Source: Polaromonas sp. (GTDB taxonomy: Bacteria; Pseudomonadota; Gammaproteobacteria; Burkholderiales; Burkholderiaceae_C). Taken from it: a stretch of DNA of 57,008 bases. The position numbers and the translations under genes are program-made. Below the pieces are notes generated by a model, which did not search any database, had not been told where the DNA came from, and was given only the letters and a program-made list of their open reading frames with translations. Where the stretch lies: the NCBI RefSeq assembly GCF_012927415.1, contig NZ_JABBPF010000021.1, positions 1 to 57,008 of the forward strand. The letters run 5' to 3'. This document shows, one piece after another, positions 27,213 to 51,946 of this stretch; the stretch's first letter is position 1, and each line of letters opens with the position of its first letter.

Positions 27213-29567
27213 ATGGATCTTTTTACGCCGGACGCTCCAGCCCGGGACCCCGAACCCGCCGACCAGGATTGCCTTGCCGCCTACGCGCAGCGCGCCTACT
27301 TGGAGTATGCGCTGAGCGTTGTCAAAGGCAGGGCTCTGCCCGATGTCTGCGATGGCCAAAAACCGGTGCAGCGGCGCATTTTGTACAGCATGGCGCGCAT
27401 GGGCCTGGGTTTTGGCGGGACCAACAACGCCACCGGTGCGCGACCGGTCAAAAGCGCGCGCGTGGTGGGCGATGTGCTGGGCCGCTTTCACCCGCACGGC
27501 GACCAGGCTGCGTATGACGCGCTGGTGCGCATGGCGCAGGACTTTTCGCAACGCTACCCGCTGATCGACGGGCAGGGCAATTTCGGCAGCCGTGACGGCG
27601 ATGGCGCCGCTGCGATGCGTTACACCGAGGCGCGCCTGAGCCGCATCACCAGCTTGCTGATGGAAGAGATCGACGAAGGCACGGTCGACTTCATCCCCAA
27701 CTACGACGGATCGACCGAAGAGCCGCGCCAGTTGCCGGCACGCCTGCCCTTCACGCTGCTCAACGGAGCGAGTGGTATTGCGGTCGGCCTGGCGACCGAA
27801 ATCCCGAGCCACAACCTGCGTGAAGTGGCCAATGCATGCGTCGCCCTCATCAAAACCCCCAAGCTCGGCGACGAAGAGTTATATACGCTGATCGCGGGCC
27901 CCGACTACCCTGGTGGCGCGCAAATTATCTCCAACGACGCAGAGATTGCCGCGGCTTACCGCACCGGGCGCGGTTCGCTCAAGGTGCGCGCGCGCTGGAA
28001 GATCGAAGAACTGGCGCGCGGCCAGTGGCAACTGGTGGTGCAGGAGCTGCCGCCCGGCGTTAGCACGCAGCGGGTACTGGAAGAAATTGAGGAAATCACC
28101 AATCCCAAGATTAAGCTCGGCAAAAAGGCGCTCAGCCTGGACCAGGTGCAACTCAAACAGTTGATGCTGTCGGTGCTCGATGTGGTGCGCGACGAATCGA
28201 GCAAGGACGCGGCTGTGCGCCTTGTTTTTGAGCCTAAGACCAGCAAAATATCTCAAGCCGAACTCATCAATACTCTGCTGGCGCACACCAGTCTGGAGAG
28301 TTCGTCTTCCATCAACCTGACGATGGTCGGCCTGGATGGTCGGCCGACTCAGAAATCTCTGCGACAGATGCTGACCGAGTGGATCGCGTTTCGCCAGATC
28401 ACGATTGAAAAGCGCTCGCAGCATCGGCTAGACAAGGTGCTGGCTCGCATCCATATTCTTGAAGGGCGGCAGCTAGTGCTGCTCAATATCGACGAAGTGA
28501 TCGCCATCATTCGTCAGTCTGACGAACCAAAGTCGGCACTGATGGAACGTTTCAGCTTGAGCGACCGACAGGCCGAGGACATTCTTGAAATCCGCTTGCG
28601 CCAGCTCGCCCGACTGGAAGCCATCAAGATCGAGCAGGAGCTCAAATCCCTGCGCGAAGAGCAGGGCAGGCTCGAAGAAATCCTGGGCAGTCCTACGGCG
28701 CTGCGCCGCTTGATGGTCAGGGAAATAGAAGCAGACGCGAAAATGTTTTCTGATCCGCGTCGCACGTTGATACAGGCCGACAAAAAGGTGGTGCTGGACG
28801 TCAAGGTGCTTGACGAGCCCGTCACCGTCGTTGTCAGCAGCAACGGTTGGGTGCGTGCCCGCAGCGGCCATGGCCATGATTCGGCAAGTTTTGCCTTCAA
28901 GGCGGGAGATGCGCTTTACAGCACTTACGAGTGCCGCACCGTCGACACCTTGCTGGCCTTTGGCAGCAATGGCCGCGTTTACTCAGTAGCCGTGGCGATA
29001 TTGCCCGGCGCGCGCGGCGACGGCCAGCCGGTTACGACGCTGATCGAGCTGGAATCGGGCACGCAATTGCGGCACTACTTTGCCGGGCCTGCCGTTGCGA
29101 CGCTGCTGCTGTCCAGTTCGGGCGGCTACGGCTTCCTGGCCACGGTAGAGGGGTTGAGTTCACGCAACAAAAGTGGCAAGGCCTTTATCGTGCTGGGCGA
29201 AGGCGAAACGGTTTGCCGTCCGTCGCATGCCAAGGGTAGCACCGGCGCCCAGCCGCTATTGTCGGCGACGCATGTGGCATGTGCTTCCACCAGCGGACGC
29301 ATCCTCACGTTTGACATCAACGAACTCAAGCAGATGGACAAAGGCGGACGGGGGCTGGTTTTGATTGACCTGGACACCAAAGATACGCTGGCCGGCGCGG
29401 CGGCGTACACCCGAAGCGTGAGTATTGAAGGCATAGGGCGGGGCAGCAAGTCGCGCGAGGAAACGCTGGAAATCCGCAGCTTGAACAATGCTCGGTCGGC
29501 GAGGGCACGCAAGGGCAAGGCGGCGGATCTGGGTTTCAAACCGACTGGAATTGTTCGGGTTGAGTGA
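27213..29567 (+). CDS. parC: DNA topoisomerase IV subunit A
   Basis: [80 protein letters not shown]. Confidence 0.96.
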
Positions 29568-29785
29568 TGAGAGTTGCCGCCGGCACGGTAGAGTTAAATT
29601 TTTTCAGCTAAGTCGTTTCATACGGAACTGGCGTCGTGGAAAGACTAGATGCTTTTTTCCTTTCGGGTCAACTCGCGGCGACCAGTCGCATTTTTTACGG
29701 GTGAAGCTTGCTCAGAACTTTGAACCTACTTTGCGGAGCGGAACCCGTCGAGTCGCCGGTTTTTAGCGATTAGAGGGACATCTCG

Positions 29786-29940
29786 ATGGGTTGCTGCCGG
29801 TTTCGTAGACACCTTGTTACGGTGTAAGGATGAAACCGCAAAGGGTTATGGAAAAGAGGCGGCAATTTCGCCGGGAATTCAAGCGAGAGGCTTTGGAGCT
29901 GGTCAGTAACCGAGGCGAGTCAGTGGCGCAAGCCGCACAT
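29786..29940 (+). mobile_element. IS3-family-like remnant: probable left end plus N-terminus of orfA (transposase_8-like)
   Basis: tgggttgctgccggtttcgtagacacc resembles an IS3-type end; ATG at 29830 gives MKPQRVMEKRRQFRREFKREALELVSNRGESVAQAAHAF, then homology stops. Confidence 0.65.
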
Positions 29941-30277
29941 GCTTTCCGGCAGCTGGCGCTAAGCGGTCGAGCGCCCCCGCCAGTCGGTGAGTGAGGCGGT
30001 TAACCAGCGCGTCGAAAGCCGCTAGCGCACGGATATGCTGGCCGCGCTGGTGATGGGTGACCGCAATGAAAATGAACGCGCCGACCGGGATGTGTTTTGG
30101 GCAACCCGCCATGGTCAATCTTATGGGCAGTTCTGGCTTGCGCAGCACCTTGTTTGCCTGGCTGGTTTCTGTTGGTAGCCGGCTTGTGGCGAAGCGTCAG
30201 CGACGCTGAAATTTCCGCGCGTGCCTTGCATCTCCTGCCCGCAGCGCCGGGGCCTTGGGGGGCTCATGCTGGCGGTT
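29938..30277 (+). pseudogene. Decayed fragment of a second comEC-like gene
   Basis: Near-colinear similarity to comEC at ~49493-49826, e.g. cgccagtcggtgagtgaggcggttaaccagcgcgtcgaaagccgc vs cgccagtcggtgcgcgaggcgatctaccagcgggtcgaaaaccgc; in-frame stops and indels. The antisense ORFs 29903..30148 and 49029..49673 share HIPV..F...VTHHQR.QH and FD.LV.RL.HRLA. Confidence 0.85.
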
Positions 30278-30388
30278 TTAAATTGATCGCAGCGGTCCAT
30301 TTTTCACGTTTTTTTTCCATAACTGAACCAGAAGCCAGAAAAATAAAAAATCAATCTTTGTTGATGCCGATATTCTCTTTTGATGTCC

Positions 30389-30406
30389 AAAGCCTCAAAA
30401 GGCTTT
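30389..30406 (-). terminator. Hairpin at the 3' end of paaE (weak terminator candidate)
   Basis: aaagcct-caaa-aggcttt perfect 7-bp stem overlapping the paaE stop; no clear downstream U tract. Confidence 0.35.
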
Positions 30407-31509
30407 TAGCGTTCGTCGTAACTCACCACCAGTCTTTCGCTGGTCGGACGGGCCTGGCAGGAAAGCACAAAGCCCTTTTCGGTTTCCCAAGGTTCTAGCC
30501 CGAAATTCTTGTCCATATACACACTCCCTTCCAGCACCTTGACACGGCAGGTGGAGCAGACTCCTCCCTTGCACGAAAAAGGCAGGTCCAGACCAGCAGC
30601 GAGAGCTACATCCAGCACATGCTGGTCAGAGTCCATATGCAATTCGTGAGGTTTGCCATCCACCACCACAGTCAGCGCAATCTTTCCAAGGACTGGAAGT
30701 TTGTGACTCGCCACGGCGGCCTGCCGGGCAGCCGGTGTGAGCTCTTCCAAAGTCGGCGAAGTGAAACGTTCAGAGTGCACACGGTCGGGGGGAACACCGG
30801 CGGCAAGCAATGCCGCTTCGGTAACTTCGATCATGACTTCGGGGCCGCATATGAAGACTTCGTCCATACTGCCCACAGGCAGTAGTGCGTCGATGATGGC
30901 GCGAATCTTGTCGCCGTCGATGCGGCCTTGCAGAAGATCGGCTTCCTGCGCCTGGCGCGAGAGGATATGGATCAGTGTGAGGCGATCAGGGTAGCGATCC
31001 TTCAGGTCCTGCAGCGACTCATTGAACATCACGCTAGCCATGCTGCGGTTGCCGTAAATAAGGGTGAACTTCGACTCTGGCTGCTCTTCCAGCGTACTCG
31101 CCATGATGGACAGAATCGGCGTGATGCCCGAACCCGCAGCAAAACCGACGCGATGCAAAGCTCGTGGGCGTTTGGACACGAAGCGGCCGTCTGGCGGCAT
31201 GGCGGCAAGTGTGTATCCTGCTTTGAGCTCATTGACTGCCCAGTTGGAAAATACGCCACCCTCCATCGGACGGATGCCAACCATTAATTCATGGTGGGTC
31301 GCCAAATGGCTGCGGGTGCTGCATATAGAGTAGCTGCGCCGTAGATCGGCGCCGTCGATGGTCGCTCGCAGGGTCAAATACTGGCCTGGCTGGAAAAAAA
31401 AAGTTTCGCTCAGATTTTGCGGAATGGTGAGCGTGATGGCGACAGACCCCGCGGCGTCGGGGCTGATGCGTGCGACCTTAAGGTCGTGGAAATGGGGGAT
31501 TTTTGACAT
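30406..31509 (-). CDS. paaE: 1,2-phenylacetyl-CoA epoxidase reductase subunit PaaE
   Basis: Ferredoxin reductase fold RRSYSICST, GSGITPILSIMASTL, C-terminal 2Fe-2S PFSCKGGVCSTCRVKVLEGSV; last of paaABCDE. Confidence 0.95.
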   Translation of the reverse strand: MSKIPHFHDLKVARISPDAAGSVAITLTIPQNLSETFFFQPGQYLTLRATIDGADLRRSYSICSTRSHLATHHELMVGIRPMEGGVFSNWAVNELKAGYTLAAMPPDGRFVSKRPRALHRVGFAAGSGITPILSIMASTLEEQPESKFTLIYGNRSMASVMFNESLQDLKDRYPDRLTLIHILSRQAQEADLLQGRIDGDKIRAIIDALLPVGSMDEVFICGPEVMIEVTEAALLAAGVPPDRVHSERFTSPTLEELTPAARQAAVASHKLPVLGKIALTVVVDGKPHELHMDSDQHVLDVALAAGLDLPFSCKGGVCSTCRVKVLEGSVYMDKNFGLEPWETEKGFVLSCQARPTSERLVVSYDER

Positions 31510-31528
31510 GGTGCGGACGCAGGAGCGC

Positions 31529-32104
31529 TCAATAAGGTTTGAAGTAATCAAACGGTTCCATGCAATTCAGGCAGCGGTACAGCGCTTTGCAAGCCGTGGA
31601 ACCAAAATGCGAGGTTTCTGTGGTGTTGACTGACCGGCATTGGGGGCAAATTACCGCCGGCTTTACATAGTCAGCTATTTTTTTAGTAGCAAATTGCACC
31701 ACGTTGATGCCCTTGCTAGCGCAGCTACTGGCCTGCGGTGGGGCAATGCCGTAGCTCTGCAGCTTCACCCTGGCCTCGGGCGTCATCCAGTCGGTGGACC
31801 ACGCGGGAGCCAGTTGGGTGACCACGCGGGCTGCAACACCGGCTTGCGCCAAAGCCGCGATAACGTCGTCTTCCATCTGACTCATGGCCGGGCAGCCACT
31901 GTAGGTGGGGGTGATCACCACCTCCAGTCCCTCCGGGCTTTCCCTCACACTCCGCAAGATGCCCATTTCGCGCAGCGACACTACCGGGATTTCCGGGTCG
32001 GTCACTGACTCCAGCAGCGCCCACACTGCGTGGTGCGGCTCAAACGGTTGCTTTTCAGCGATGGGTCCCTCGGGTAATGGCATTGCATTCATGGGGTTTA
32101 CCAA
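31529..32104 (-). CDS. paaD: Phenylacetate-CoA oxygenase subunit PaaD (DUF59/SufT-like)
   Basis: WALLESVTDPEIPVVSLREMGILR, VVITPTYSGCPAM, C-terminal cysteines CPQCRSVNT...CKALYRCLNCMEPFDYFKPY. Confidence 0.95.
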   Translation of the reverse strand: MVNPMNAMPLPEGPIAEKQPFEPHHAVWALLESVTDPEIPVVSLREMGILRSVRESPEGLEVVITPTYSGCPAMSQMEDDVIAALAQAGVAARVVTQLAPAWSTDWMTPEARVKLQSYGIAPPQASSCASKGINVVQFATKKIADYVKPAVICPQCRSVNTTETSHFGSTACKALYRCLNCMEPFDYFKPY

Positions 32105-32883
32105 ACAGCTTGGGGATGAGCGCGGGCCAGACTTTGCATTTCGGCCAGCACGAAACCCAAGTGCTCAGAATGCAGGCACTGCTTGCCAGTGGAGACATGG
32201 CCATCCGTGCTGGAGCGCCTGAGCGTGGCCCGGGCCAGCGTGTCGTTGACAACTTCGTTCCAGGCCGCTTGCAGGCTGGTCGTCGCTATGCCCACACCAG
32301 CATCAACTGCTGAAGTTTCCATGGCGCACGACGTCCAGAACTCCTGCGTGTAAGGCATTAAATGGTCCAAGGCCGCTTGAGCCCGGGCCTGCGATTCGTC
32401 CGTGCCATCGCCCAAACGCAGTAGCCAGTCGCGCGAGTGGCGCAGGTGGTATTGCGTTTCCTTGAGCGACTTGGCGGCAATAGCGGCCAGTTGGGCATCT
32501 TTGGACACCTTGAGCGCCTCCCACGTCAGCACCATCAGCGCGCTGTAGAGGAAGTTGCGCGCGATGGTCACCGCATAGTCGCGGTCTCCCGCTGCGGTGG
32601 GTGCCAGCGCTGTGCTGTGGGGCAACTCCAGCAGGGTGTAGTTACGGAAATCCGGCACGCCGCGGAAGTAGGCCAGTGTGTCTTCAGTGGTGCGACCATC
32701 GTTGTGCAGGGCGGCGACATGCTGGTAAATTAGCCGCGCCTGGCCAATCAGGTCCAGGCTGTTGTTGGCCAGCGCCAGATCTTCTTCAAGAATCGGCCCA
32801 TGACCACACCATTCGGCATTGCGCTGCCCGAGGATCAGTGCGTTGTCGGCCAGATGCAGCAGGTAGTCGGTGTGCGCCGACAT
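32098..32883 (-). CDS. paaC: 1,2-phenylacetyl-CoA epoxidase subunit PaaC
   Basis: YLLHLADNALILGQRNAEWCGHGPILEEDLALANNSLDLIGQARLIYQH; HLGFVLAEMQSLARAHPQAVW. Confidence 0.95.
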   Translation of the reverse strand: MSAHTDYLLHLADNALILGQRNAEWCGHGPILEEDLALANNSLDLIGQARLIYQHVAALHNDGRTTEDTLAYFRGVPDFRNYTLLELPHSTALAPTAAGDRDYAVTIARNFLYSALMVLTWEALKVSKDAQLAAIAAKSLKETQYHLRHSRDWLLRLGDGTDESQARAQAALDHLMPYTQEFWTSCAMETSAVDAGVGIATTSLQAAWNEVVNDTLARATLRRSSTDGHVSTGKQCLHSEHLGFVLAEMQSLARAHPQAVW

Positions 32884-33179
32884 TACATGTGCCCCACTTC
32901 GTCAGGGATTTTGTAGAAGGTGGGGTGACGGTAGATCTTGTCGGCCGCTGGCTCGAACATCGATTCCTTGTCGTCTGGCGCGCTGGCCGTGATGCTGGCC
33001 GAAGGCAGCACCCAGATGCTCACGCCTTCCTGGCGGCGGGTGTACACATCGCGCGCCATCTGCAGCGCCTGCTTGGCATCGGCGGCATGCAGGCTACCGC
33101 AATGCTTGTGCTCCAGACCTTGTTTGCTGCGGACAAAAACTTCCCAGAGGGGCCATTCTTTCAACGCGGGTGTGCTCAT
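32883..33179 (-). CDS. paaB: 1,2-phenylacetyl-CoA epoxidase subunit PaaB
   Basis: [53 protein letters not shown]. Confidence 0.96.
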
Positions 33180-34189
33180 GCTGCTTCCTTAATGGCCTGT
33201 GTTTGCCGTTTGCGGGAATAGGCCAGCGCGGCATCGCGCACCCACTGGCCATCGTTGTGTGCCTTGACGCGTGTCGCCAGGCGCTCCTTATTGCAGGGTC
33301 CGTTGCCGTTCACGGTAGACCAGAATTCGTCCCAGTCAATTTGCCCGTAGTCGTGGTGCTGGCGCTCTTCGTTCCACTTCAGATCAGGATCGGGCAGGGT
33401 CACGCCGAGAACCTTGGCTTGTGGCACGGTGGCATCGACAAATTTTTGACGCAGGTCGTCATTGGAGATGCGCTTGATGCCCCAGCGCATGGCCTGGGCG
33501 CTATGTGGGCTGTCGGCATCTGGCGGCCCAAACATGGCCAGGCATTTCCACCACCAGCGGTTGACGGCATCCTGCACCATGGCTTTTTGCTCGACGGTTC
33601 CCTTCATCATCACCAGCAGGGCTTCATAACCCTGACGCTGGTGGAAGGATTCTTCCTTGCACACGCGGATCATGGCGCGCGCATAAGGGCCATAACTGCA
33701 GCGGCACAGTGGAATCTGATTCATGATGGCCGCGCCATCCACCAGCCAGCCCACCACGCCCAGATCGGCCCAGTTGAGCGTCGGGTAGTTGAAGATGGAG
33801 CTGTATTTGGCTTTGCCACTGTGCAAGCCTTCCAGCATCTGGTCGCGGCTGGTGCCCAGTGTTTCGGCAGCGCTGTACAGGTACAACCCGTGCCCGCCCT
33901 CGTCTTGCACTTTGGCAATCAGAATGGTCTTGCGCTTGAGACTGGGGGCTCGGCTGATCCAGTTGCCTTCCGGCAACATGCCCACTATTTCGCTGTGTGC
34001 ATGCTGGCTGATCTGCCGCACCAGGGTTTTGCGATAGGCCTCGGGCATCCAGTCCTGTGGCTCGATCTTGCCATCGGCGTCGATCTTGTTGTCAAACCGG
34101 GCTTGCGATTCTGCAGATTCTGTCGAAGGGGCCAGTGGAACCGACCTCAGGCCGGGAGTGTCCGGCACATTGAATGATTGGGTATACAT
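33176..34189 (-). CDS. paaA: 1,2-phenylacetyl-CoA epoxidase catalytic subunit PaaA
   Basis: [69 protein letters not shown]; start [10 protein letters not shown]. Confidence 0.96.
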
Positions 34190-34247
34190 ATTGGCTATCT
34201 CCTGTGTAGTGACAAAAAAACTCTGCATCAACCTTCGCTGCTCTGTC

Positions 34248-34616
34248 TTATCCCCATTCAAGAAGCCATGCCGGCCTGCGTTTCTCAACGACCGCAAAAA
34301 TTCCATCCTGGGCTTCATCCGTTGCCCGCTGCCGGGCAGCGCGTTGTGCCGTTCCGCAAATACCAACATCGTCGATGCGCCGTCCGTTGACGGCCGTAAT
34401 CAGATCCTTCGCCGCTTTCCGGGCCTGCGGTGCCCCTGCAATCAGTGCCTCAGCCAAGGTCGCGACGTTTGCATCCAACGCATCGTCGGGTGTCACTTCG
34501 TTGGCCATACCCAGATCAACAATCAGTTGCTTGTTGAAGGCGTTAAAAACCGACAGACGATTCATCCAGATCGTGGCTATCCGGCCGCTGCGGTCAATTT
34601 CGAAAGTTTGATACAT
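34248..34616 (-). pseudogene. Enoyl-CoA hydratase/isomerase-family gene with large internal deletion
   Basis: 122-aa ORF joins a crotonase N-terminus (MYQTFEIDRSGRIATIWMNRLSVFNAFNKQLI) directly to a crotonase C-terminus ([40 protein letters not shown]...[19 protein letters not shown]); the oxyanion-hole core is missing. Confidence 0.8.
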
Positions 34617-34676
34617 ACGAATGTTTGTTTCAACCTCAATCGCAGGCCGTAAGCGACCGTTTTTTAGCTCTCGCCA

Positions 34677-35822
34677 TTAGTGGGAAATTGTCCAGTCACC
34701 ACCCTTGACTTCCAGCATGCGGAAGGAGGAAAGGTCCAGGCCCAGATGGTCGGTTGCCGACATAGTCACGTTCCCACTCGAACCCACATAACCTTTAGTG
34801 GCTTCGATGGCGTCACGCACTTTGGCTTTGTCCGTCCCCCCCGCCCGTTTGATCGCATCGACGGCAATCATCAGGCCATCGTACGCATAGCCACCGAAGG
34901 TTGACACATCCTGCTTGTAACGCTCCTTGTAAGCCTTGTCATAGGCTGTCACAACCGGTTTTTGAGGATCGTTGGCGGCCAATTTTTCCGGGATCAATTG
35001 AGCGGGGGAAGGCAGACGCACGCCTTCGGCTGCCGGGCCGGCCAGTTTCAAGAAGTCGCTAGAAGCTACGCCGTGCGACTGGTAAAGCGGTAACGTGATG
35101 CCGAGCTGCTTGTAGTTCTTGGTAACGATGGCCGGACCCTGCCCCAAGCCGAACACGAAGACCGCCTGCACACCCGCCGTGTTCTTGATTTTGGTCAGCT
35201 GCGGGCTCGCGTCGGTATCTTTCGGGCCATAGGTTTCATTTGCAACCAGGGCGACGCCGTACTTGGCTGCCACACCCTCGGTTTCCTTCTTGCCAGACTG
35301 GCCGAAACCACTGGTTTCAGAGAGTAGCGCGACCTTGCTGATGCCTCGCTTCTTCATGTCATCAAACACCTTTTCGGCCGCCATGCGGTCGGTGTGCGGC
35401 GTCTTGAAAACCCACTTTTTCACTGGCTCAATAATGACGACAGCGCCGGCCAAGGAGATGAAGGGAATGTGGGCCTTTTCAACCAGCGGCACCATGGACA
35501 TGGTGGCGCCCGTAGTAGTCCCGCCCACCAGAATATCCACCTTGTCATCATCGATCAGGCGTTTCGCAAAGCCGTTTGCCTTGTTGGCGTCGCTGCCATC
35601 ATCGTAGTGAACCAATTGCAGTTGACGGCCAAGCACGCCGCCTTTTTTGTTCAATTCTTCAATGTAAAGTTGCAGCGTCTTCAGTTCAGGGTCACCAAGG
35701 AAGGCAGCTGGACCCGTGACGGACAGTACGGATCCAATCTTGATGGGCTCTGCGGCATAAGCACTCAAGGCGCCGAAGGCCAGAGTGGCACCGATGACCA
35801 GCGTTTTCAGTTTAAATTTCAT
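34677..35822 (-). CDS. Branched-chain-amino-acid-type ABC transporter substrate-binding protein (LivK-like)
   Basis: Signal peptide MKFKLKTLVIGATLAFGALSAYAAEPIKIGSVLSVTGPAAFLGDPELKTLQLYIEELNKKGGVLGRQLQLVHYDDGSD. Confidence 0.92.
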   Translation of the reverse strand: MKFKLKTLVIGATLAFGALSAYAAEPIKIGSVLSVTGPAAFLGDPELKTLQLYIEELNKKGGVLGRQLQLVHYDDGSDANKANGFAKRLIDDDKVDILVGGTTTGATMSMVPLVEKAHIPFISLAGAVVIIEPVKKWVFKTPHTDRMAAEKVFDDMKKRGISKVALLSETSGFGQSGKKETEGVAAKYGVALVANETYGPKDTDASPQLTKIKNTAGVQAVFVFGLGQGPAIVTKNYKQLGITLPLYQSHGVASSDFLKLAGPAAEGVRLPSPAQLIPEKLAANDPQKPVVTAYDKAYKERYKQDVSTFGGYAYDGLMIAVDAIKRAGGTDKAKVRDAIEATKGYVGSSGNVTMSATDHLGLDLSSFRMLEVKGGDWTISH

Positions 35823-35847
35823 GGTTTTGTCTCCGTTGTAATAAGTC

Positions 35848-37053
35848 TTAAATTCGCTCAATGATCAGGGCGATGCCCTGCCCAACACCGATACACATCG
35901 TGCAAAGCGCATAACGTCCGCCACGCCGAGCCAACTCGTAACTCGCAGTCGTCACCAGCCGGGCGCCGCTCATGCCGAGCGGATGTCCCATGGCAATCGC
36001 ACCACCATTCGGATTCACCCGTGCCTCATCGTCAGCCAGGCCGAGGTCGCGCAAAACAGCCAGGCCCTGCGCCGCAAAGGCTTCATTCAGTTCGATGACG
36101 TTCATCTGATGGAGCGTCAGGCCGGCCTTCGCCAATACCTTGCGCACGGCAGGGGCTGGACCGAAGCCCATGACGCGTGGCGCCACGCCAGCCGTTGCCA
36201 TCGCAACGACTCGGGCACGCGGCGTAAGTCCATGATGACGGGCAGCGGTCTCGGAGGCAATCAGAAGTGCGCAGGCACCGTCATTGACTCCTGAAGCGTT
36301 GCCTGCGGTCACGGAAAGCGCCGGGCCATTCACACCTTTTAGCTTGCTTAGCATTTCCAGCGTGGTTTCCGGGCGCGGATGCTCGTCGGTATCGACCACC
36401 ATCGACTCTCCCTTCTTGTGCTGTATCACCACCGGCACAATTTCGGGGGTGAAGCGACCCGCCGCATGAGCTGCTGCCCAGCGTTGTTGCGAGCGCAGCG
36501 CGAAAGCATCCTGATCGGCGCGAGAAATATTGAATTCAGCAGCCACGTTATCCGCCGTTTGCGGCATCGAATCAGTGTCGTAAAGCTTTTTCATCAATGG
36601 ATTGGTGAAACGCCAGCCGATGGTCGTGTCAAAGATGGCAGCGTTGCGCGAGTAAGCGCTTTCTGCCTTGCCCATGACGAAGGGCGCGCGTGACATGCTT
36701 TCGACGCCACCTGCGATCATCAATTCGGTGTCGCCGGCCTTAATTGAACGAGCGGCCAAACCGATGGCGTCCATGCCAGAGCCGCACAGGCGGTTGATCG
36801 TGGTACCCGGCACTTCGACGGGCAGACCCGCAAGCAGGCCGGACATGCGGGCGACGTTGCGGTTATCTTCGCCGGACTGATTGGCACAGCCGTAAATGAT
36901 GTCTTCCACGGCGGTCCAGTCAACCTGCGGGTTACGCTCAATTAACGCCCTGAGCGGGATGGCGCCGAGGTCGTCAGTACGCACACCGGCAAGCGCGCCA
37001 GCGTAACGACCGATGGGGGTGCGAATGGCATCGCAAATAAAAGCTTCGGTCAT
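35848..37053 (-). CDS. paaJ: 3-oxoadipyl-CoA/acetyl-CoA thiolase (PaaJ/PcaF-like)
   Basis: [94 protein letters not shown]. Confidence 0.92.
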
Positions 37054-37063
37054 TTCATTTCTG

Positions 37064-38389
37064 TCAGGTTTGCTTGGGACGCTCATCAATCACTCGGCGG
37101 GCTTTGCCGGTCAGCGTCCGCGGAATTGAGTCGTGGTCCATCACCCTTACTTTTGTAGAAATTCCGGCAATAGTCTTGATGTGGTGCTGCAATTCCTTGC
37201 TGATCAACTCTATCTCCACGGGCGACAAGTGACCTGAAAACTCTCGTTGCAACTCGCAACGTACTTCAACGTTGTCAAGGTGACCATCACGGGAAAGAAA
37301 TATCTGATAAGTTCCCGCCAGACGTTTGTCTCGCAGGATCTGCTCTTCAATCACGCTCGGGAAGACGTTGACGCCACGCACTATCAGCATGTCGTCAGTG
37401 CGACCAGTGATTCGGTCCATGCGCCGGAAGCTGCGCGAGGTCGGCGGCAACAAACGGGTCAGGTCGCGGGTGCGGTAGCGAATCACCGGCATGGCTTCCT
37501 TGGAAAGTGAGGTGAAAACCAGTTCGCCTTCCTCGCCATCGGCGAGCACTTCACCAGTATCCGGGTTGATGATTTCTGGATAGAAGTGATCCTCCCAAAT
37601 CACCGGACCATCTTTGGATTCAATGCACTCACAGGCAACGCCAGGGCCCATGACTTCAGTCAAACCGTAGATGTCGATGGCGTCAATGCCCAGCTTGCGT
37701 TCAATCTCATCGCGCATACCGCGGCCCCAGGGTTCGGCGCCAAAGATGCCAATTTTCAAGGAGATGTCTTCGGGTTTGATCCCTAGACGCTCAAACTCCT
37801 CAGCAATGACCAGCGAGTAAGACGGGGTTACCATGATGATCTCGGGCTGGAAATCCTGGATCAACTGCACTTGCTTTTCTGTTTGACCGCCGGACATCGG
37901 CACCACCATGCACCCGGCGCGCTCGGCGCCATAGTGTGCACCCATGCCGCCGGTAAACAAACCGTAACCGTAGGCGATGTGACAGGTGTCGCCAGCGCGC
38001 CCACCTGCAGCACGAATCGAGCGAGCCATCAGATTGGCCCAGGTATCAATATCTTTAAGCGTGTAACCGACAACAATCGGTTTGCCGGTTGTGCCAGACG
38101 ATGCATGAATGCGTGCCACCTTTCTGCGTGACACGGCAAACAGGCCAAACGGATAGTTATCACGCAAGTCGATTTTGGTGGTGAAGGGGAATTTGGCCAA
38201 GTCCGCCAAGGCTTTCAAGTCGTCTGGATGAACTCCCTTTTCGTCAAACTTGTTTTTGTAGTGCGGAACGTTGTCGTAAGCATGCTTTAACGTCCACTTA
38301 ATGCGCTCCAGTTGCAAAGCAGAGATTTGGTCACGGCTGGCGGACTCAATTGGCTCAAGGTCGCCGGGCATCGGATTTTTAACGGACAT
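37064..38389 (-). CDS. paaK: Phenylacetate-CoA ligase
   Basis: IHASSGTTGKPIVVGYT, AYGYGLFTGGMGAHYGAERAGCMVVPMSGGQTEKQ, IDIYGLTEVMGPGVACEC. Confidence 0.97.
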   Translation of the reverse strand: MSVKNPMPGDLEPIESASRDQISALQLERIKWTLKHAYDNVPHYKNKFDEKGVHPDDLKALADLAKFPFTTKIDLRDNYPFGLFAVSRRKVARIHASSGTTGKPIVVGYTLKDIDTWANLMARSIRAAGGRAGDTCHIAYGYGLFTGGMGAHYGAERAGCMVVPMSGGQTEKQVQLIQDFQPEIIMVTPSYSLVIAEEFERLGIKPEDISLKIGIFGAEPWGRGMRDEIERKLGIDAIDIYGLTEVMGPGVACECIESKDGPVIWEDHFYPEIINPDTGEVLADGEEGELVFTSLSKEAMPVIRYRTRDLTRLLPPTSRSFRRMDRITGRTDDMLIVRGVNVFPSVIEEQILRDKRLAGTYQIFLSRDGHLDNVEVRCELQREFSGHLSPVEIELISKELQHHIKTIAGISTKVRVMDHDSIPRTLTGKARRVIDERPKQT

Positions 38390-38413
38390 GGTGGTCTTCC
38401 CTTGATGATTTTG

Positions 38414-38878
38414 CTATTTGGCGTATTCGCCCTGTTGCAAGCTGGCAATCACTTCACCGCCGACGCGGTAGCTCTTGCCCCGAAATAGGGCGATGGTTTT
38501 GCCTCCACGCACGCTCACGGTGACGTCATAAACGCCGGTGCGACCGGCCTGCGAGCGTTCGACGGCTTCGGCCTCCAGCAAGTCACCTTCTCCGGCGGGT
38601 GCCAAAAAATCAATATGACAGGCCGAGGCCACGGTGTTTTGGTTGTGACTGTTGCAGGCATAGGCAAATGCACTGTCGGCTAACGTAAATAGGTAGCCGC
38701 CGTGACAAGTGTGGTGGCCATTGAGCATGTTCCCATGCACCGGCATTGAGACCAAGGCGTAACCCGGTTTGACGCTGAGTATCCGCATGCTCAACGCTTG
38801 AGAAGCCCGGTCGCGAGACCACATGGCAGCACACACTTCTTCCGCCAGTGCTTGAGGATCGGAATGTGGCGCAATCAT
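38414..38878 (-). CDS. paaI: Hydroxyphenylacetyl-CoA thioesterase PaaI
   Basis: MLNGHHTCHGGYLFTLADSAFAYACNSHNQNTVASACHIDFLAPAGEGDLLEAEA hot-dog fold. Confidence 0.94.
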   Translation of the reverse strand: MIAPHSDPQALAEEVCAAMWSRDRASQALSMRILSVKPGYALVSMPVHGNMLNGHHTCHGGYLFTLADSAFAYACNSHNQNTVASACHIDFLAPAGEGDLLEAEAVERSQAGRTGVYDVTVSVRGGKTIALFRGKSYRVGGEVIASLQQGEYAK

Positions 38879-38880
38879 GA

Positions 38881-40116
38881 AAATTCCTTCCTTCAAAAAC
38901 GTTGTCTTGGATCAGCGGCGAGACGCGGTGGCGGTATTCACCGCAGGTTTGACCGAGGTGGGTGAGCACCTGGCATATCTTTGGCAGTCCAACGGTGTTC
39001 GCCCTCGCAAGGAAGCCGCAGGGCAATTGACATCGAGCCGCACGGCTACATCGGCCCTTTTCGTATCGCGGACTCCTTGATTAACGGCGTCCGCAGCTTT
39101 ATTGACCAGTATGGCGACGCTGCGCATCGCAGCCAGACCCGGCATATCGTTGAAGCGAGAAACCGCTATCCCATTGGCTTGAAGCGAGCCGATGCCCTGC
39201 GCTGCATTGGCTGAATTGCATTGCGCCGCAACGCTTACAGCAAGACCTGTCGCCCGGCTGTAATCCAGCGCCAAATCGACCTGCATGGTATTGGCAATTC
39301 CGGTACCAAAGGCGCAGCGCGTCACCGTGCGGCCATCGATGACATACGCTCCAGCGTTAACTGCCTCAGCAATCAATTCGCAGTTGGTCTCGGTAAAATT
39401 GATGTCACATCCGATCATGTACATCAGCTCCAACGGCGCCATGCGGAAATCGCTGGCTTCGCAACAGCAGGCGTCGACGGTGACAGAGTCAGCCCCGCCT
39501 TCATGACGCATGCGCAGGGTTTTGACGTCATACGGTCGGGCGACACGGTTGACAATGAAGCCAGGCGTTGATTTGGCGTGGAGCGGAATTTTCCCCATTT
39601 GCTGGCCGTAATGAACAGCGTTTTGGCCAGCACAGGATGATTGGTAGCCAGATCTGAGACAGTTTTTACCAGCACCATCAAGGGGGCTGGATTGACGAAA
39701 TGCAGGCCGGAAAACCGCCCTGGATGCTGCAGGGTCGCACCGACCGTGTTGACGGAAATGAAGGATGGGTTGGTGCTAAAAAGGCGGTTCACACCCACGA
39801 CAGCTTCGAGATCGCTGTAAAGCCTTTGCTTGGCTTCCGGATTTTCGACAATCGCCTCAACAACCGGAGTTGCGCTGGCCAGATCGGATAATTCGTTAAC
39901 GGCAATCAGTCGCTCACCCGCATTGGCGGCGGCTTTCAATGCCAACTTGCCTTTTTCGACTAATTTTGCGAATGGGGCGCCGACATTAGCGCCTGCATGT
40001 TCAATTGCCTGTGCGCGGATATCCAGCAGTTTCACCGGATGACCCGAGGCTGCCGCAACCTGGGCAATACCGGCACCGGCACCGGCAACCGCCCACTTTG
40101 AAAGAGGAACACTCAT
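38881..40116 (-). pseudogene. paaH: 3-hydroxyacyl-CoA dehydrogenase PaaH, multiply frameshifted
   Basis: Three consecutive reading frames carry PaaH-like segments: GAGAGIAQVAAASGHPVKLLD..LHFVNPAPLM (ORF to 40203), KSTPGFIVNRVARPY..DLALDYSRATGLAV..NKAADAVNQGV (ORF 38912..39598) and HLGQTCGEYRHRVSPLIQDNVFEG (ORF 38610..39026). Confidence 0.88.
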
Positions 40117-40120
40117 CCGC

Positions 40121-40918
40121 TTAAGCCCCTGTAAAAATCGGGGCGCGCTTTCCTTTGAAGGCTGCAACACCCTCGGAGAAATCCGCACTCCAGCCCAATT
40201 CACGCATGAAACCGGCTTCCATTGATAACTGCTGTTCCAGAGTGTGGCCCGGGGCTGCTTGCATGGCTTGACGGGTGCGCACCAGCGCTTTGGTGGGAGC
40301 TATGGAAAGCTGTGCGGCCAGGGCATCAACTGTCGGCGCGAACTCGGCATCCTCCACGGCGGCCCAAATCAACCCCCAGTCGGCAGCCTTCTCGGCTGAC
40401 AGCTTGCCCGCCAACAATGCCAAACCCATGGCGCGCGCCATCCCAACGCGTTGCGGCAGGAACCAGGTTCCACCGGTGTCTGGAACCAGCCCGACCTTGG
40501 AGAAGGCCTGAAGGAACGACGCCGATTTGCAGGCGATCACCAGATCGCAGGCCAGCGCAAGACTGGATCCGGCACCAGCCGCAATACCGTTAACGGCAGC
40601 AATCGTCGGCACCCGCAGATTTTGCAGACGCAGAATCAGCGGCTTGTAGTCCTTTTCAACGACGTTGCCCATGTCTGGCGGTGGCCCGCCCTGTATGACC
40701 TGCACCTGCGGGTCTGACAAATCCTGCCCGGCACAAAAACCTTTTCCAGCTCCTGTCAGCACCAGCACACGGATGGTTTGGTCTTGCTGAACCTGATCAA
40801 GTGCGACACGCAGCTCAGCGTGCATGGCTCCATTGAAGCTGTTCATCTTGTCGGGACGGTCCAGCGTCAGGCGGGCAATATTGCCCTGCAGTTCAAACCG
40901 GATATTTTCAAAAGTCAT
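40121..40918 (-). CDS. paaG: Ring-1,2-epoxyphenylacetyl-CoA isomerase PaaG
   Basis: Crotonase fold: LTGAGKGFCAGQDLSDPQ, VNGIAAGAGSSLALACDLVIACKSASFLQAFSKVGLVPDTGGTWFLPQRVGMARAMGLALLAGKLSAEKAADWGLIW. Confidence 0.92.
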   Translation of the reverse strand: MTFENIRFELQGNIARLTLDRPDKMNSFNGAMHAELRVALDQVQQDQTIRVLVLTGAGKGFCAGQDLSDPQVQVIQGGPPPDMGNVVEKDYKPLILRLQNLRVPTIAAVNGIAAGAGSSLALACDLVIACKSASFLQAFSKVGLVPDTGGTWFLPQRVGMARAMGLALLAGKLSAEKAADWGLIWAAVEDAEFAPTVDALAAQLSIAPTKALVRTRQAMQAAPGHTLEQQLSMEAGFMRELGWSADFSEGVAAFKGKRAPIFTGA

Positions 40919-40927
40919 GGCAATGCC

Positions 40928-42631
40928 TCAACCGTGATAACGGCGCTGGATAACCCGGAACCGATTGGCGACGAAAGCCGAATCTGAATAGGAGGCGTTA
41001 GCTGCAGGATTGCCGCCGGTGCCGTGGTAGTCGGAGAAGGCTGAGGACTGGTTGACATACACGCCACTGGTCAGGTTGATTGACAGCGCTACCTTGGAGC
41101 GCCAGGTAGCTGCGGTCATGGCATCAATCACATCCGGCTTGGTCGAGTAAATACCGGCAGTCAAGGCGCCGTGGGTGCTCACTACGCGCTCCGACAAGGC
41201 GATAGCCGCCGCTGTATCAGCCACTCTCACCACAAAAGTGATTGGGCCGAAGCGCTCTTCCATGTAGGATTTTTCGTCGGCAGCGTCACAAGCCAGCAGC
41301 GCCGGCGTGCGTACTTCAGCGTTCGGGAATTCTGGATTAACAAGTTTTTTCGATGCCAAGATCACTTGGCCTAAAGTGCCGCTGTTGGCCTCGTCAATGC
41401 GCCTCAGGGTGTCGGCAGACTGGACAGCGCCGAGTACGGCAAGAGCAACTTCCGGCTTTGCCAGCGTGCCCTCAATGGTTCGGGCGAGGTCATCGCAGAC
41501 ATCCTCGCAGGACTTGTGGCCTTCTTCAGTTTCAATCCCGCCGGCGGGTACAAAAAGGACTTGCGAGGTGGTACACATCTGACCGGAATACAAGGACAGC
41601 GTGAAGGCCAGGTTACGCAGCATTGACTTATAGGCGTCTGTGGAGTCGATCACGATGTTGTTCACGCCGGCTAATTCGGCATAAACCTGGGCTTGCCGAC
41701 AGTTGTCAATCAGCCACTGACCAAAGACATTGCCGCCGGTAAAGTCGATGGACTTGACCGCCGCATGGGTCACCAGCTGTTGTGTAGTTTCGTGAAGGGC
41801 CGCGACACACAGGGTGACCAGATTGGGGTCGATGCCATTTTCAGCCAGCACAGTCCTGACAATGCGCACGGTCATGGCCGCCGGCAAGATCGCGTTGCTA
41901 TGCGGCTTGACGATCACGGCGTTGCCTGTCGCGAGCGCCGCAAACAGGCCAGGGTAGGTATTCCATGTCGGAAACGTGCCGCAACCCACGACGACACTGA
42001 CACCCCGCCCAACCACCTCAAAATGTTTTTTCATCACCAGTGGTGGGTTTTTGCCCTGCGGCTTCTCCCATATCGCCTCGGTCGGCACGAAGCTTTGTTC
42101 CCGGTAGGCATAAGTCACGGCTTCCAGGCCGCGATCCTGTGCGTGCGGTGCCCCCGCCTGAAAAGCCATCATCCAGCCCTGGCCGGTCGTCATCATGACA
42201 GCGTGCGCCAATTCAAAGCTCTGCATATTCAAGCGATCGAGCATTTCGATACAAATGCCGGTGCGCCCTTCGCAACCCGCAGCCTGCCAGCCCAGCATGG
42301 CCTTTTGACCGGCATCGATCAAGGCTTGTGCCTCACACACTGGGTACTGCACGTTCAGTTCAACGCCGAACGGTGATTGCTCACCCCCCATCCAGCCAGT
42401 CTGCCCCGGCTGATCGATTTCAAATTTCTGACCCAGTTGCGCCTCAAAAGCATGCTTGCCGTCTTCAGCCGCTGTCTCACCATAAGTCTTCGGGCTGGGG
42501 ATTTCGTTATACGCAGCCCAATAACCGCGGGTCTGAATCGCCTTGAGCGCGTTTTCAAGTTTGGTGCGGTGTTTTTCGAACAGTGGGTGGACCATTGATT
42601 TTTCCTGAATGAGGGGTGTGTTCGATGACAT
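40928..42631 (-). CDS. paaN: Phenylacetic acid degradation protein PaaN (aldehyde dehydrogenase family)
   Basis: ALDH-fold: VVVGCGTFPTWNTYPGLFAALATGNAVIVKPHSNAILPAAMTVRI, LAFTLSLYSGQMCTTSQVLFVP, FSDYHGTGGNPAANASYSD. Confidence 0.92.
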   Translation of the reverse strand: MSSNTPLIQEKSMVHPLFEKHRTKLENALKAIQTRGYWAAYNEIPSPKTYGETAAEDGKHAFEAQLGQKFEIDQPGQTGWMGGEQSPFGVELNVQYPVCEAQALIDAGQKAMLGWQAAGCEGRTGICIEMLDRLNMQSFELAHAVMMTTGQGWMMAFQAGAPHAQDRGLEAVTYAYREQSFVPTEAIWEKPQGKNPPLVMKKHFEVVGRGVSVVVGCGTFPTWNTYPGLFAALATGNAVIVKPHSNAILPAAMTVRIVRTVLAENGIDPNLVTLCVAALHETTQQLVTHAAVKSIDFTGGNVFGQWLIDNCRQAQVYAELAGVNNIVIDSTDAYKSMLRNLAFTLSLYSGQMCTTSQVLFVPAGGIETEEGHKSCEDVCDDLARTIEGTLAKPEVALAVLGAVQSADTLRRIDEANSGTLGQVILASKKLVNPEFPNAEVRTPALLACDAADEKSYMEERFGPITFVVRVADTAAAIALSERVVSTHGALTAGIYSTKPDVIDAMTAATWRSKVALSINLTSGVYVNQSSAFSDYHGTGGNPAANASYSDSAFVANRFRVIQRRYHG

Positions 42632-42709
42632 ACAGGGAACTTCAGTCAACAACATTTTTTTTAAATCAGCTATATTTAATTTAGCTCGAGGTTATCACAT
42701 AACGATTCA

Positions 42710-42746
42710 TTTTGTTGTTACAAAACTTGAAATGTGTATCGCTTTT
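42710..42746. promoter_or_regulatory. Candidate operator region in divergent paaN/paaX intergenic segment
   Basis: ttttgt-tgtt-acaaaa inverted repeat (42710-42725) and gtgtatcgctttt (42734-42746), which resembles motif copies upstream of livH. Confidence 0.4.
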
Positions 42747-42881
42747 GTGCTAATAGCATGAGTTAAGCAAGCACGACGAAAACCATGATTTTTGTCAGTG
42801 AGAGAAAAACGACCCGGGCTCGTAAAGGCGTGTGGGCAGCTAAGATTCATGTTTTTATGTCAGTAGCCCCCGGTAATTACC

Positions 42882-43835
42882 GTGATTGATCCCATCCAGA
42901 AACACCTTGCCGACTTTCGGCAGCAAAGCCGCATGAAGGCAGGCTCACTGATAATTTCAGTTTTTGGCGACGCGGTTTTGCCGCGCGGTGGACGCATCTG
43001 GCTAGGCAGCCTGATTGGTTTGCTCAAACCGTTGCAACTGAATGAGCGACTCATCCGGACTGCGATTTTCCGCCTCGTCAAGGATGAGTGGATGTACTCC
43101 GAAGCCATCGGTCGTCGTGCAGATTACATGCTGACACCCGCGGGGCAGCGTCGCTTTGAAGAAACAGCTCGCCATATTTACGCGTCCAACTCTCCCATCT
43201 GGGATCGCCGCTGGCGACTGATCCTGACCGTCGGGGAGCTTGAGCCCAAGCAGCGTGAACGACTGCGTCGCGCCTTTTTCTGGCAGGGTTTTGGGGTCGT
43301 CGGCCCAGACTGTTTCGTGCACCCCAGCACGGATCTGACAACTGCCTTCGATGCGCTGATTACTGACGGCATGAGCGATTTGCTCAGGCATTTGATGCCC
43401 TTGCTTGCCGCCCGAGCTGGTTCAGACCTCTCTGCCAGTGATGCTCATATGGTGCGGCGTGCGTGGAACCTGGAACAGCTCGGTACGTCTTATGCCGACT
43501 TCGTGACTCGTTACCACCCTATTCTGGATAAGCTGCGCCACGGTGTGCAAAATGAAATTGACGACGAAAGCGCTTTCTTGTTGCGCACACTGCTAATTCA
43601 CGATTACCGGCGACTGTTGCTTCGGGATCCAGAGCTTCCCGATGTACTGCTGCCCGGCAACTGGCCGGGGCAAAAAGCCCGTCTGCTATGCAAGGAGCTT
43701 TACCGACGCCTGCTCGCACCTTCCGAGCGTCACATTGAACTGCATATGAAACTGTCCAGCGGCGTGACACCTGGCGCGTTACCCATGTTGGCTGAACGTT
43801 TTCAAACCGAAGATCCGCTGACGACCCCGGTTTGA
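42882..43835 (+). CDS. paaX: Phenylacetic acid degradation operon transcriptional repressor PaaX
   Basis: MKAGSLIISVFGDAVLPRGGRIWLGSLIGLLKPLQLNERLIRTAIFRLVKDEWMYSEAIGRRADYMLTPAGQRRFEETARHIYA; PaaX-like C-terminal region HDYRRLLLRDPELPDVLLPGNWPG. Confidence 0.95.
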   Translation: MIDPIQKHLADFRQQSRMKAGSLIISVFGDAVLPRGGRIWLGSLIGLLKPLQLNERLIRTAIFRLVKDEWMYSEAIGRRADYMLTPAGQRRFEETARHIYASNSPIWDRRWRLILTVGELEPKQRERLRRAFFWQGFGVVGPDCFVHPSTDLTTAFDALITDGMSDLLRHLMPLLAARAGSDLSASDAHMVRRAWNLEQLGTSYADFVTRYHPILDKLRHGVQNEIDDESAFLLRTLLIHDYRRLLLRDPELPDVLLPGNWPGQKARLLCKELYRRLLAPSERHIELHMKLSSGVTPGALPMLAERFQTEDPLTTPV

Positions 43836-43938
43836 CGCGCCCGTTGTGCCATACCTGCCTGATTCCGGTCCAAGCCAGACATTTGACCCATCCATTTTTT
43901 GCGCTGGATTGCTGTCCCGCAAACAAGGGAAAACCCTC

Positions 43939-43996
43939 TTGACAACTTATAAAGCGATACAAATATGGTAAGTAAATCGTGTTTTTGTATCGGTTT
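43939..43996 (+). promoter_or_regulatory. Candidate livH promoter with overlapping operator palindrome
   Basis: ttgaca (43939-43944) and possible -10 tatggt (43964-43969, 19-bp spacing); perfect inverted repeat cgatacaaa (43955-43963) / tttgtatcg (43984-43992). Confidence 0.5.
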
Positions 43997-44128
43997 ATTG
44001 ACAGAATGTTTGCTGCGTTTCAAAATCGCAAAGTTTGGGCGCGAAGCCCTTTACTGAAACGAGAAGGACAAAATGCTCAAGCAATCGGCCAGCAGGTTGG
44101 GTTTCACTCTAACGGGACAAGGCGCGTG

Positions 44129-45004
44129 ATGCTGGCCCAATTCCTTCAATTCCTTTTTTCGGGCATCACTGTCGGCGCAACCTACGCCTTGGCGGCGCTC
44201 GGTTTCACGCTGATCTACAACGCAAGCAACGTCATCAATTTTGCACAGGGTGAATTCATCATGCTCGGCGGCATGCTGGCGGTGTACTTCTCCCAAGCTG
44301 GGCTACCGTTGTCGGTCGCGTTAGTGCTGGCCATCCTGGTGCCCGCCATCGTCGGCGTGCTGCTGGAAAAGCTGGCAATCGAACCAGTCAAAGGGGCGGA
44401 GACGGTGACCCTGATCATCATCACCATTGGAGCTTCCCTGGTCATTCGCGGATTGATTCAGGTTTGGCTGGGCAAAGGCACGCACAGCCTGCCAGCGTTT
44501 TCTGGTGATGTCCCGATTGAAATTCTCGGCGCCACCCTGATGCCCCAAAGTCTCTGGGTGCTGGGCGTCACCGCTCTGGTCGTGGTGGCTCTCTGGTACT
44601 TCTTCAGCCGTACCCTGCACGGCAAAGCCATGCTGGCCACCTCATTTAACCGGCTGGCCGCAGAGTTGGTTGGCATTAACACCAGTTGGGTGCTGTTCAT
44701 GAGCTTTGCCATGTCGGCAGCACTGGGCGCTGTGGGTGGCATCCTGGTCACCCCGATAACGCTGACTTCTTATGACGTGGGCATCATGCTCGGCCTTAAA
44801 GGCTTTGTTGCCGCCGTCGTCGGTGGTCTGGGCAACGGACTGGGTGCCGTGCTTGGCGGCTTGCTGGTGGGCATCCTGGAGGCGATGGGCGCGGGCTACA
44901 TCTCTTCAGCTTACAAGGATGCGATTCCTTTTGTACTCATTTTGTTCATGCTGTTCTTCATGCCTCGTGGCCTGTTTGGCGGCAAATCAACGGACCGGGT
45001 GTAA
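44129..45004 (+). CDS. livH: Branched-chain-amino-acid-type ABC transporter permease (LivH-like)
   Basis: MLAQFLQFLFSGITVGATYALAALGFTLIYNASNVINFAQGEFIMLGGMLAVYF; VGGLGNGLGAVLGGLLVGILEAM. Confidence 0.95.
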   Translation: MLAQFLQFLFSGITVGATYALAALGFTLIYNASNVINFAQGEFIMLGGMLAVYFSQAGLPLSVALVLAILVPAIVGVLLEKLAIEPVKGAETVTLIIITIGASLVIRGLIQVWLGKGTHSLPAFSGDVPIEILGATLMPQSLWVLGVTALVVVALWYFFSRTLHGKAMLATSFNRLAAELVGINTSWVLFMSFAMSAALGAVGGILVTPITLTSYDVGIMLGLKGFVAAVVGGLGNGLGAVLGGLLVGILEAMGAGYISSAYKDAIPFVLILFMLFFMPRGLFGGKSTDRV

Positions 45005-45006
45005 GC

Positions 45007-45939
45007 ATGAAAAAGAGTGCTTATTTCGGTCTCTACATCGTTATTGCCATTTTGCTGGTGCTGCCTTTTGTACTGCCCAACAGTTTTTACGTCGATCTGG
45101 CGATTCGCATGGCCATTAACGCCGTGATTGTCCTGGGCCTGAATCTGCTGATCGGCTTTGCTGGCCAGATCAGCATGGGGCATGCAGGATTCCTGGGAAT
45201 TGGGGCCTACGCTTCTGCCGTGCTGCCAACCCACTTCGGCTGGCATCCGCTGCTTGCCATGGGGTCCGGTGCTGTTGCCACTGGCCTGCTGGCTGCGCTG
45301 GTAGCCAGGCCGATCTTTAAATTGAAGGGCCATTATCTGGCCATGGCTACCCTGGGTTTAGGCATCATCATCAACATTGTGTTGCGCACGGAGGCGGCCC
45401 TGACCGGTGGCCCGGACGGCATGCCAGTACCTGCGTTGGGCTTGCTGGGCTTCGAGTTGTCGAGCGACAAGCACTGGTACTGGGTCGTTGCGCTGCTGCT
45501 TTCGGTCAGTGTCTGGACCTCGCTTAACCTGATCGACTCGCCGTTTGGCCGAGCGCTGCGGGCTTTGCATGGCTCGGAAGTCGCTTCCCAGGTCGCCGGT
45601 GTCGATGTGGTTCGCTACAAGGTCTCAATCTTCGTCATCTCAGCGGTCTTTGCCAGCCTGATGGGCAGCGTGACCGCACATTATGTGGGTTTTGTCACGC
45701 CCAACTTCGCCGACTTCTTTCATTCCATCGAACTGGTCACCATGGTGGTGATTGGCGGCATGGCCTCGGTCTATGGCTCCCTGGTCGGCGCCGTACTGCT
45801 GACCGCACTGCCGCAGGCGCTAGCTACTTTCGAAGGCTGGGAAACCGTCGCCTTCGGCGCCATCCTGATGATTTTCATGATCTTCATGCCCCGCGGCCTG
45901 GTGCCCACGCTGGCGGCTAAATTTGGCAAGGCAGCCTGA
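45007..45939 (+). CDS. livM: Branched-chain-amino-acid-type ABC transporter permease (LivM-like)
   Basis: LNLLIGFAGQISMGHAGFLGIGAYASAVL, FGRALRALHGSEVASQVAGVDVVRYKVSIFVISA, VIGGMASVYGSLVGAVLLTALPQ. Confidence 0.95.
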   Translation: MKKSAYFGLYIVIAILLVLPFVLPNSFYVDLAIRMAINAVIVLGLNLLIGFAGQISMGHAGFLGIGAYASAVLPTHFGWHPLLAMGSGAVATGLLAALVARPIFKLKGHYLAMATLGLGIIINIVLRTEAALTGGPDGMPVPALGLLGFELSSDKHWYWVVALLLSVSVWTSLNLIDSPFGRALRALHGSEVASQVAGVDVVRYKVSIFVISAVFASLMGSVTAHYVGFVTPNFADFFHSIELVTMVVIGGMASVYGSLVGAVLLTALPQALATFEGWETVAFGAILMIFMIFMPRGLVPTLAAKFGKAA

Positions 45940-45941
45940 GC

Positions 45942-46703
45942 ATGGCACTCCTTGAAGTCAAGCAACTCTGCATTCAGTTTGGTGGTGTCAAGGCGGTACA
46001 AAACGTCAGTTTCAGCATTGAGCCTGGCATTGTCTATGCCGTCATCGGCCCCAATGGTGCGGGCAAGACCACCCTGTTCAACCTGATCACCGGGGTTTAC
46101 ACCCCCACCAGTGGCTCCATTTTGCTGGACGGTGAATCCATCGGTGGAAAACCGCCGAACGAATTGGCCAGGCGCGGCGTTGCCCGCACGTTTCAGAACC
46201 TGCAGATCTGCATGAACATGAGCGCCCTGGAGAACGTGATGGTGGGAGCTCACTTGCGGCTGGACCGCAATCCGCTGAAAGCGGCGCTGCGTCTTCCTTC
46301 CATCACGCGCCGTGACGCTGAACTGCGCGAAGAGTCTGCGGAACTGATGCGCTTTGTGGGTCTGGAGAAATACATCCAAGCTCGCGCTGACAGCATGCCC
46401 TACGGAGCCCTGAAACGGCTGGAAATTGCCCGGGCGTTGGCTTTGAGGCCACGCATCATCTTTCTGGATGAGCCCGCAGCGGGCCTGAACCCGAAGGAAA
46501 CCATCGAAGTCGATGAGCTGGTGCGCAAGGTGGCCGATTCTGGCGTCACCGTGGTGCTGGTGGAGCACGACATGAAGATGGTCATGAACCTTTCCGACCG
46601 AATCCTGGTGCTTGACTACGGCAAGAAGCTCGCTGAGGGCACGGGCGATGAGGTTCGCAAAAATCCCGACGTGATTGCCGCCTACCTCGGAACGCACGCC
46701 TAG
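45942..46703 (+). CDS. livG: Branched-chain-amino-acid-type ABC transporter ATP-binding protein (LivG-like)
   Basis: Walker A GPNGAGKTTLFNLITG, RGVARTFQNLQI, YGALKRLEIARALALRPRIIFLDEPAAGLNP. Confidence 0.95.
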   Translation: MALLEVKQLCIQFGGVKAVQNVSFSIEPGIVYAVIGPNGAGKTTLFNLITGVYTPTSGSILLDGESIGGKPPNELARRGVARTFQNLQICMNMSALENVMVGAHLRLDRNPLKAALRLPSITRRDAELREESAELMRFVGLEKYIQARADSMPYGALKRLEIARALALRPRIIFLDEPAAGLNPKETIEVDELVRKVADSGVTVVLVEHDMKMVMNLSDRILVLDYGKKLAEGTGDEVRKNPDVIAAYLGTHA

Positions 46704-46713
46704 AAAGAACTGC

Positions 46714-48504: not shown

Positions 48505-48782
48505 GGATGTCTCCTGGGGGTAAACGCTGAAAATAGTAGTCAAATTCGGCGCTAGTCCAACAAATATCGCTATATCTTGCTATAAAAAACAGAGCTAGCG
48601 AGGATGGGTCGAATTGCCATGGTAACGCAGGGCTTTGTGCTCGACGGCTAAATTTTCAGCGCTTTTAGGGGCTGCCAGACGTTGCCCTACGCTTGCGCCG
48701 GACCGGTCGTGTCGGCGTTTGCCTGCACTGGCCCGTTGAACGGGTTCTGGCAAAAACAACAACCATCAAGGGGCGGCAAGAC

Positions 48783-51347: not shown

Positions 51348-51389
51348 GTTTGCGCTCAGAGCGTACTGGCTGGCGGTGGGTACACGGGT

Positions 51390-51900: not shown

Positions 51901-51946
51901 TGGGCATGTGGGCATGTGGGCATGTGGGCATGTGGGCATGTGGGCA
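51901..51946. repeat. 8-bp tandem repeat tgggcatg, five perfect copies plus one partial
   Basis: tgggcatg at 51901, 51909, 51917, 51925 and 51933, then tgggca. Confidence 0.97.

Follow-up and report, generated by a model that had tools for sequence, protein, structure and literature searches.

Duplicated pseudogene fragments of the dead-on-arrival kind, and the direct-repeat footprints of Campbell-type integration or tandem duplication, are already well known in bacteria. The locus described here is a further example: it contains an ordinary pseudogene, a fragment of comEC which, like dead-on-arrival duplicates, is truncated, carries nonsense codons and frameshifts, has diverged evenly and keeps no intact frame. 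Nothing essential sets it apart from such duplicates; what is unusual is its place, at the ancestral locus of the gene and parted from the intact copy by an operon-sized insertion. As in Campbell-type integration and in tandem-duplication direct repeats, two copies in the same orientation flank a block of DNA. It differs from these, and from partly deleted tandem repeats, in that the left copy is reduced to 342 bp, so that the reciprocal junctions by which the mechanism would be recognised have disappeared. The part of the literature on comEC pseudogenes and duplications that was covered yielded no mention of this locus. The window, that is the whole stretch of 57,008 nucleotides analysed, is contig C110 of a Polaromonas assembly of 219 contigs and 3.65 Mb; its features are collected in Table 1.

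Table 1. Coordinates of the features discussed (window positions, unless a genome is named)
Feature	Position	Strand	Evidence or remarks
parC (subunit A of DNA topoisomerase IV), anchoring the ancestral parC-ridA-comEC order on the left	27213..29567	+	Pfam PF00521, E 6e-130; 84-91% aa identity to relatives' parC
Spacer, 216 bp, parC to transposase stub	29568..29783		Matchless in fetched loci and own genome
Remainder of an IS3-type element (left end, orfA to about codon 30)	29784..29936	+	73-75% match to G052, G001
comEC pseudogene fragment	29932..30273	+	73% to 49487-49828; nonsense codons, frameshifts, flat codon-position divergence
Palindromic dispersed intergenic Polaromonas repeat (~170 bp), old left-truncated copy	30280..30410	+	70-92% to L144-L149, L184-L187
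Phenylacetate catabolism/ABC-transporter block	30406..48030		17.6 kb, between parC and ridA; order collinear in G095 and G102
ridA, putatively of the RidA family by its sequence; ancestral left neighbour of comEC	48046..48543	-	76-86% aa identity to comEC-adjacent gene of relatives
Intact comEC, 884 aa	48693..51347	+	PF03772 E 4e-57, PF13567 E 1e-26, PF00753 E 2e-11
comEC segment homologous to the fragment	49487..49828	+	Pairwise BLASTN
Direct repeat copies in G081	G081:C1:2093688-2120640, 2137171-2164119 (L241-L244, L210, L211)		One edge just upstream of comEC

The initial annotation had proposed a decayed comEC fragment, and a pairwise alignment bears it out. Comparison of 29500-31000 with 48500-52500 by BLASTN gave a single strong match, with 256 of 350 positions identical (73%) on the same strand (E 6e-53), and the same pair was the strongest repeat in a self-comparison of the whole window. 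The local alignment scored 216 and the best of 300 dinucleotide-preserving shuffles 32, and the similarity is therefore not a chance effect of GC-rich sequence. The start that had been given, 29938, falls 6 bases inside the true edge at 29932. The 342-base fragment covers ComEC residues ~265-379 and so overlaps the beginning of the Competence domain (PF03772, from residue 304). In the comEC frame, the in-frame stops and small indels already noticed are two nonsense codons, both early, TAA for Tyr and TAG for Gln, followed by frameshifts of +1, -2, +2 and -1. The antisense ORFs over both regions (29903-30148 and 49029-49673, minus strand) had been put forward as an independent check; their resemblance is not independent, being this one DNA similarity seen on the other strand. 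With its homology, its broken frame and the absence of purifying selection, the sequence is a comEC pseudogene fragment. No Rfam family reached the gathering threshold in 29400-30500, and there is no sign of function, nor of a present role beyond that of spacer DNA.

Relatives of the window were fetched by ComEC similarity and proved to be Polaromonas. In 11 of them a single contig carries parC and, no more than ~15 kb further on, comEC on the same strand; ridA lies between the two on the opposite strand in the relatives examined, and the genes downstream are also the same. The distance from parC to comEC is 0.8 kb in KJH.2 (G092), 1.3 kb in UBA4122 (G085), 2 kb in G013, 4.5 kb in G027, 6 kb in G095, 8 kb in RYN_542 (G111), 9.4 kb in P. 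jejuensis (G084) and G099, and about 14 kb in P2-4. The parC-ridA-comEC interval is variable in content across Polaromonas, its cargo in L248-L252 being what we take, by eye, to be patatin-like, amidase-like and transglutaminase/ATP-grasp-like genes. In the window, DNA homology to the relatives ends at the parC stop codon, the fragment begins 364 bp after parC, and no more than ~130 bp separate its other side from the start of the phenylacetate (paa) block. Given the order in relatives and this layout, the fragment therefore lies where comEC once began: beside parC it occupies the ancestral place of that gene, in the same orientation. This position had been missed, as had the fact that the intact gene is the one parted from parC, by the paa block. 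The 19.6 kb earlier quoted as the distance between fragment and gene accordingly measures an insertion together with its edges, and not a jump. Downstream of comEC, the window also holds a 58-bp perfect direct repeat (53802-53859 and 53983-54040), the second copy of which overlaps the start of an ORF at 53983.

Second copies of comEC were searched for in 87 genomes of the genus, own genome included. The latter contained two comEC-like stretches only, the fragment and the intact gene. The fragment found matches in 63 other genomes of the genus, and in none of the 86 others did a second comEC fragment lie at its place. Two comEC matches were also scored in G081, G100 and G115, for reasons other than such a relic. 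In G100, the second comEC (L209, G100:C2:3000-16000), which is followed by genes of its own and is 64% identical to that of the window, is possibly a contamination or a true second locus. In G115, comEC is split at residues ~310-315 over two contigs (L206, L207); an insertion into the gene is likely, because neither piece reaches its contig end. The comEC of G013 (L216:9881-10200) carries a ~200-bp insert in which a GC-rich unit of ~84 bp is repeated in tandem about three times, and similar units are found at L146:2239-2318.

The fragment breaks off sharply at both edges, as the end points of deletions would, the left edge joining the IS3-type stub and the right one the truncated repeat. The stub gives a weak match to PF01527 (HTH_Tnp_1, E 0.0011, below the gathering cut-off), and a longer orfA is present at L022:1565-1912. 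Full copies of the repeat have inverted ends, CTAGGAGCCTGTCGG...CCGACAGGCTCCTAG, and the window copy lacks the first ~36 bp. This repeat, which occurs between genes in several Polaromonas, was also seen at L144:2928-3096 and at homologous places in L145-L149, with 7 matching places in G004. On the parC side, the spacer 29568-29783 had no match in the fetched loci (E<=0.01), no remnant of ridA or of the comEC 5' part was detected in its 216 bp, and no other copies of spacer or stub were found in the own genome.

Where the copy came from was left in the initial annotation as a choice between an old intragenomic duplication and the acquisition of a foreign fragment. Among all comEC sequences compared, the nearest to the fragment is the own comEC (72.9%, next best 70.8%), and not that of another genus. 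At discriminating sites the fragment sides with the own gene over each of 93 others, the counts being 24:17 against P. jejuensis and 29:20 against AER3_5, neither of which is significant. A first tree left out P. jejuensis and RYN_542, owing to a strict extraction filter; the later tree, which has both, is less resolved and is the one used. Own gene and fragment were joined with UFBoot values of 99, 99 and 92 in three trees (SH-aLRT 0, alternative AU p 0.51), and AU tests of the fragment's exact branch, over 348 columns, rejected neither the alternatives nor the neighbours, so that topology is a weak guide here. That the fragment was brought from another genus on a mobile element is suggested by the IS3-type stub abutting it, but we hold this to be very improbable: every non-Polaromonas sequence is farther than the own comEC, plasmid records match the stub alone and not the comEC part, and the best tree puts the fragment in a 27-row Polaromonas-centred group (support 96/97). 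An AU test holding it outside this group did not reject that placement (p 0.30). Of the two origins first proposed, the foreign one from another genus is thus unsupported.

A stronger argument than tree topology comes from codon positions. At consensus sites conserved among neighbours, the divergence of the fragment is 0.26/0.19/0.25 at the three positions (chi-square p 0.45), against 0.05/0.02/0.22 for the own comEC, which is constrained; branch lengths agree with this contrast between fragment and gene. With divergence even over codon positions, nothing indicates that the fragment was ever under selection as a gene of its own. The neutral distance computed from changes at positions 1 and 2 is 0.248. 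Under the assumption of independent sites and a uniform rate, a copy imported from a lineage at the distance of the closest sampled comEC should show a third-position distance of 0.46 to the own gene; the distance observed is 36/113 or 0.32 (P 0.0014). The copy was therefore near identical to the own comEC at its birth; the distance is too small for import from any sampled relative, and an intragenomic duplication is favoured. The figures also bear on the reverse scenario, in which the original comEC would survive as the fragment, having been replaced by an intact ridA-comEC that came from another Polaromonas, alone or together with the paa block. The ancestral parC neighbourhood kept by the fragment, and the non-significant site counts against P. 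jejuensis and AER3_5, speak for such a replacement. We nevertheless find it improbable, as a near-zero divergence at birth would call for a nearly identical donor, and the genes after comEC, from 52309 onward, are in standard order with ordinary divergence.

The block contains paaE, D, C, B and A, a substrate-binding protein, a thiolase, paaK, paaI, a broken paaH, paaG, paaN, paaX and a branched-chain-type ABC transporter; these names are presumptive, taken mostly from family resemblance by eye, while the PaaE domains come from a Pfam run. The same gene order is found in G095 and G102, where the block lies at another place in the genome. At the right edge, DNA homology to G095 stops at ~48023, about 20 bp before ridA, and the left flank of paaE in G102 and G095 has no similarity to 29570-30405. 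Recent horizontal transfer of the block was considered and not retained, third-position divergence from G095 and G102 being mixed: paaA, C, D, E and livM, G, F are below the core, and the middle genes equal it. To the broken paaH (38900-40200), the PaaH of G095 (546 aa) aligns in three frames, with 59-72% identity; the neighbours of paaH are mostly at 87-97% versus G095.

Our preferred reading, held with moderate confidence, is that the fragment is the functionless relic of a direct-repeat comEC duplication formed when the paa block entered. Integration of the single-crossover type, or a transient tandem duplication, would have brought the block between parC and ridA and left a second comEC copy on the parC side. 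The comEC 5' part of this copy, with the neighbouring ridA copy, would then have been deleted at the IS3-type element and its 3' part lost at the palindromic repeat, the rest decaying by neutral mutation. In the window, same-orientation copies indeed flank the edges of the block, the fragment on one side and ridA/comEC (48046-51347) on the other. Since the predicted ridA copy and comEC 5' part are gone, the link between fragment and block rests on position and orientation. No second comEC match was detected in the relatives G085, G090, G092, G027, G013 and G095, whose parC-ridA interval is without the block, and no intermediate genome for the direct-repeat model was found among the 86 other genomes of the genus.

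The main rival is that illegitimate recombination or repair synthesis placed a copy of a short piece of comEC beside parC, in a local event independent of the block's arrival. The fragment is small, and its abrupt ends both touch mobile or repeat sequence, as such local copying would produce. It must then be a coincidence that the piece landed less than 0.4 kb from parC, in the parental orientation and at the exact edge of the block, and we regard this explanation as possible but rather unlikely. An artefact of assembly, either a chimeric contig or a misplaced contaminant, is brought to mind by the 219 contigs of this fragmented assembly. It is scarcely credible here: reads of one sequence, whether collapsed or used twice, cannot yield a copy diverged by 27%, and the genes on either flank, parC and paaE, are coherent; a chimeric junction may exist elsewhere in the contig.

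Returning to the direct-repeat reading, a more specific version, which we consider unlikely, would make the fragment the scar of an operon-sized single-crossover integration at comEC, and the interval a recurrent integration site. A large direct repeat that includes comEC was observed in the single-contig Polaromonas genome G081: its two 27-kb copies, 99.9% identical, lie 16.5 kb apart, and may be a real duplication or an assembly artefact.

What is known of ComEC and competence is unchanged by this locus, the intact gene being present and the fragment without sign of function. If the preferred reading is right, the fragment would be a small record of the arrival of a catabolic cluster in a conserved chromosomal neighbourhood. 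The most useful by-product of the analysis is the variable interval itself: in Polaromonas, the stretch between parC, ridA and comEC tolerates cargo.
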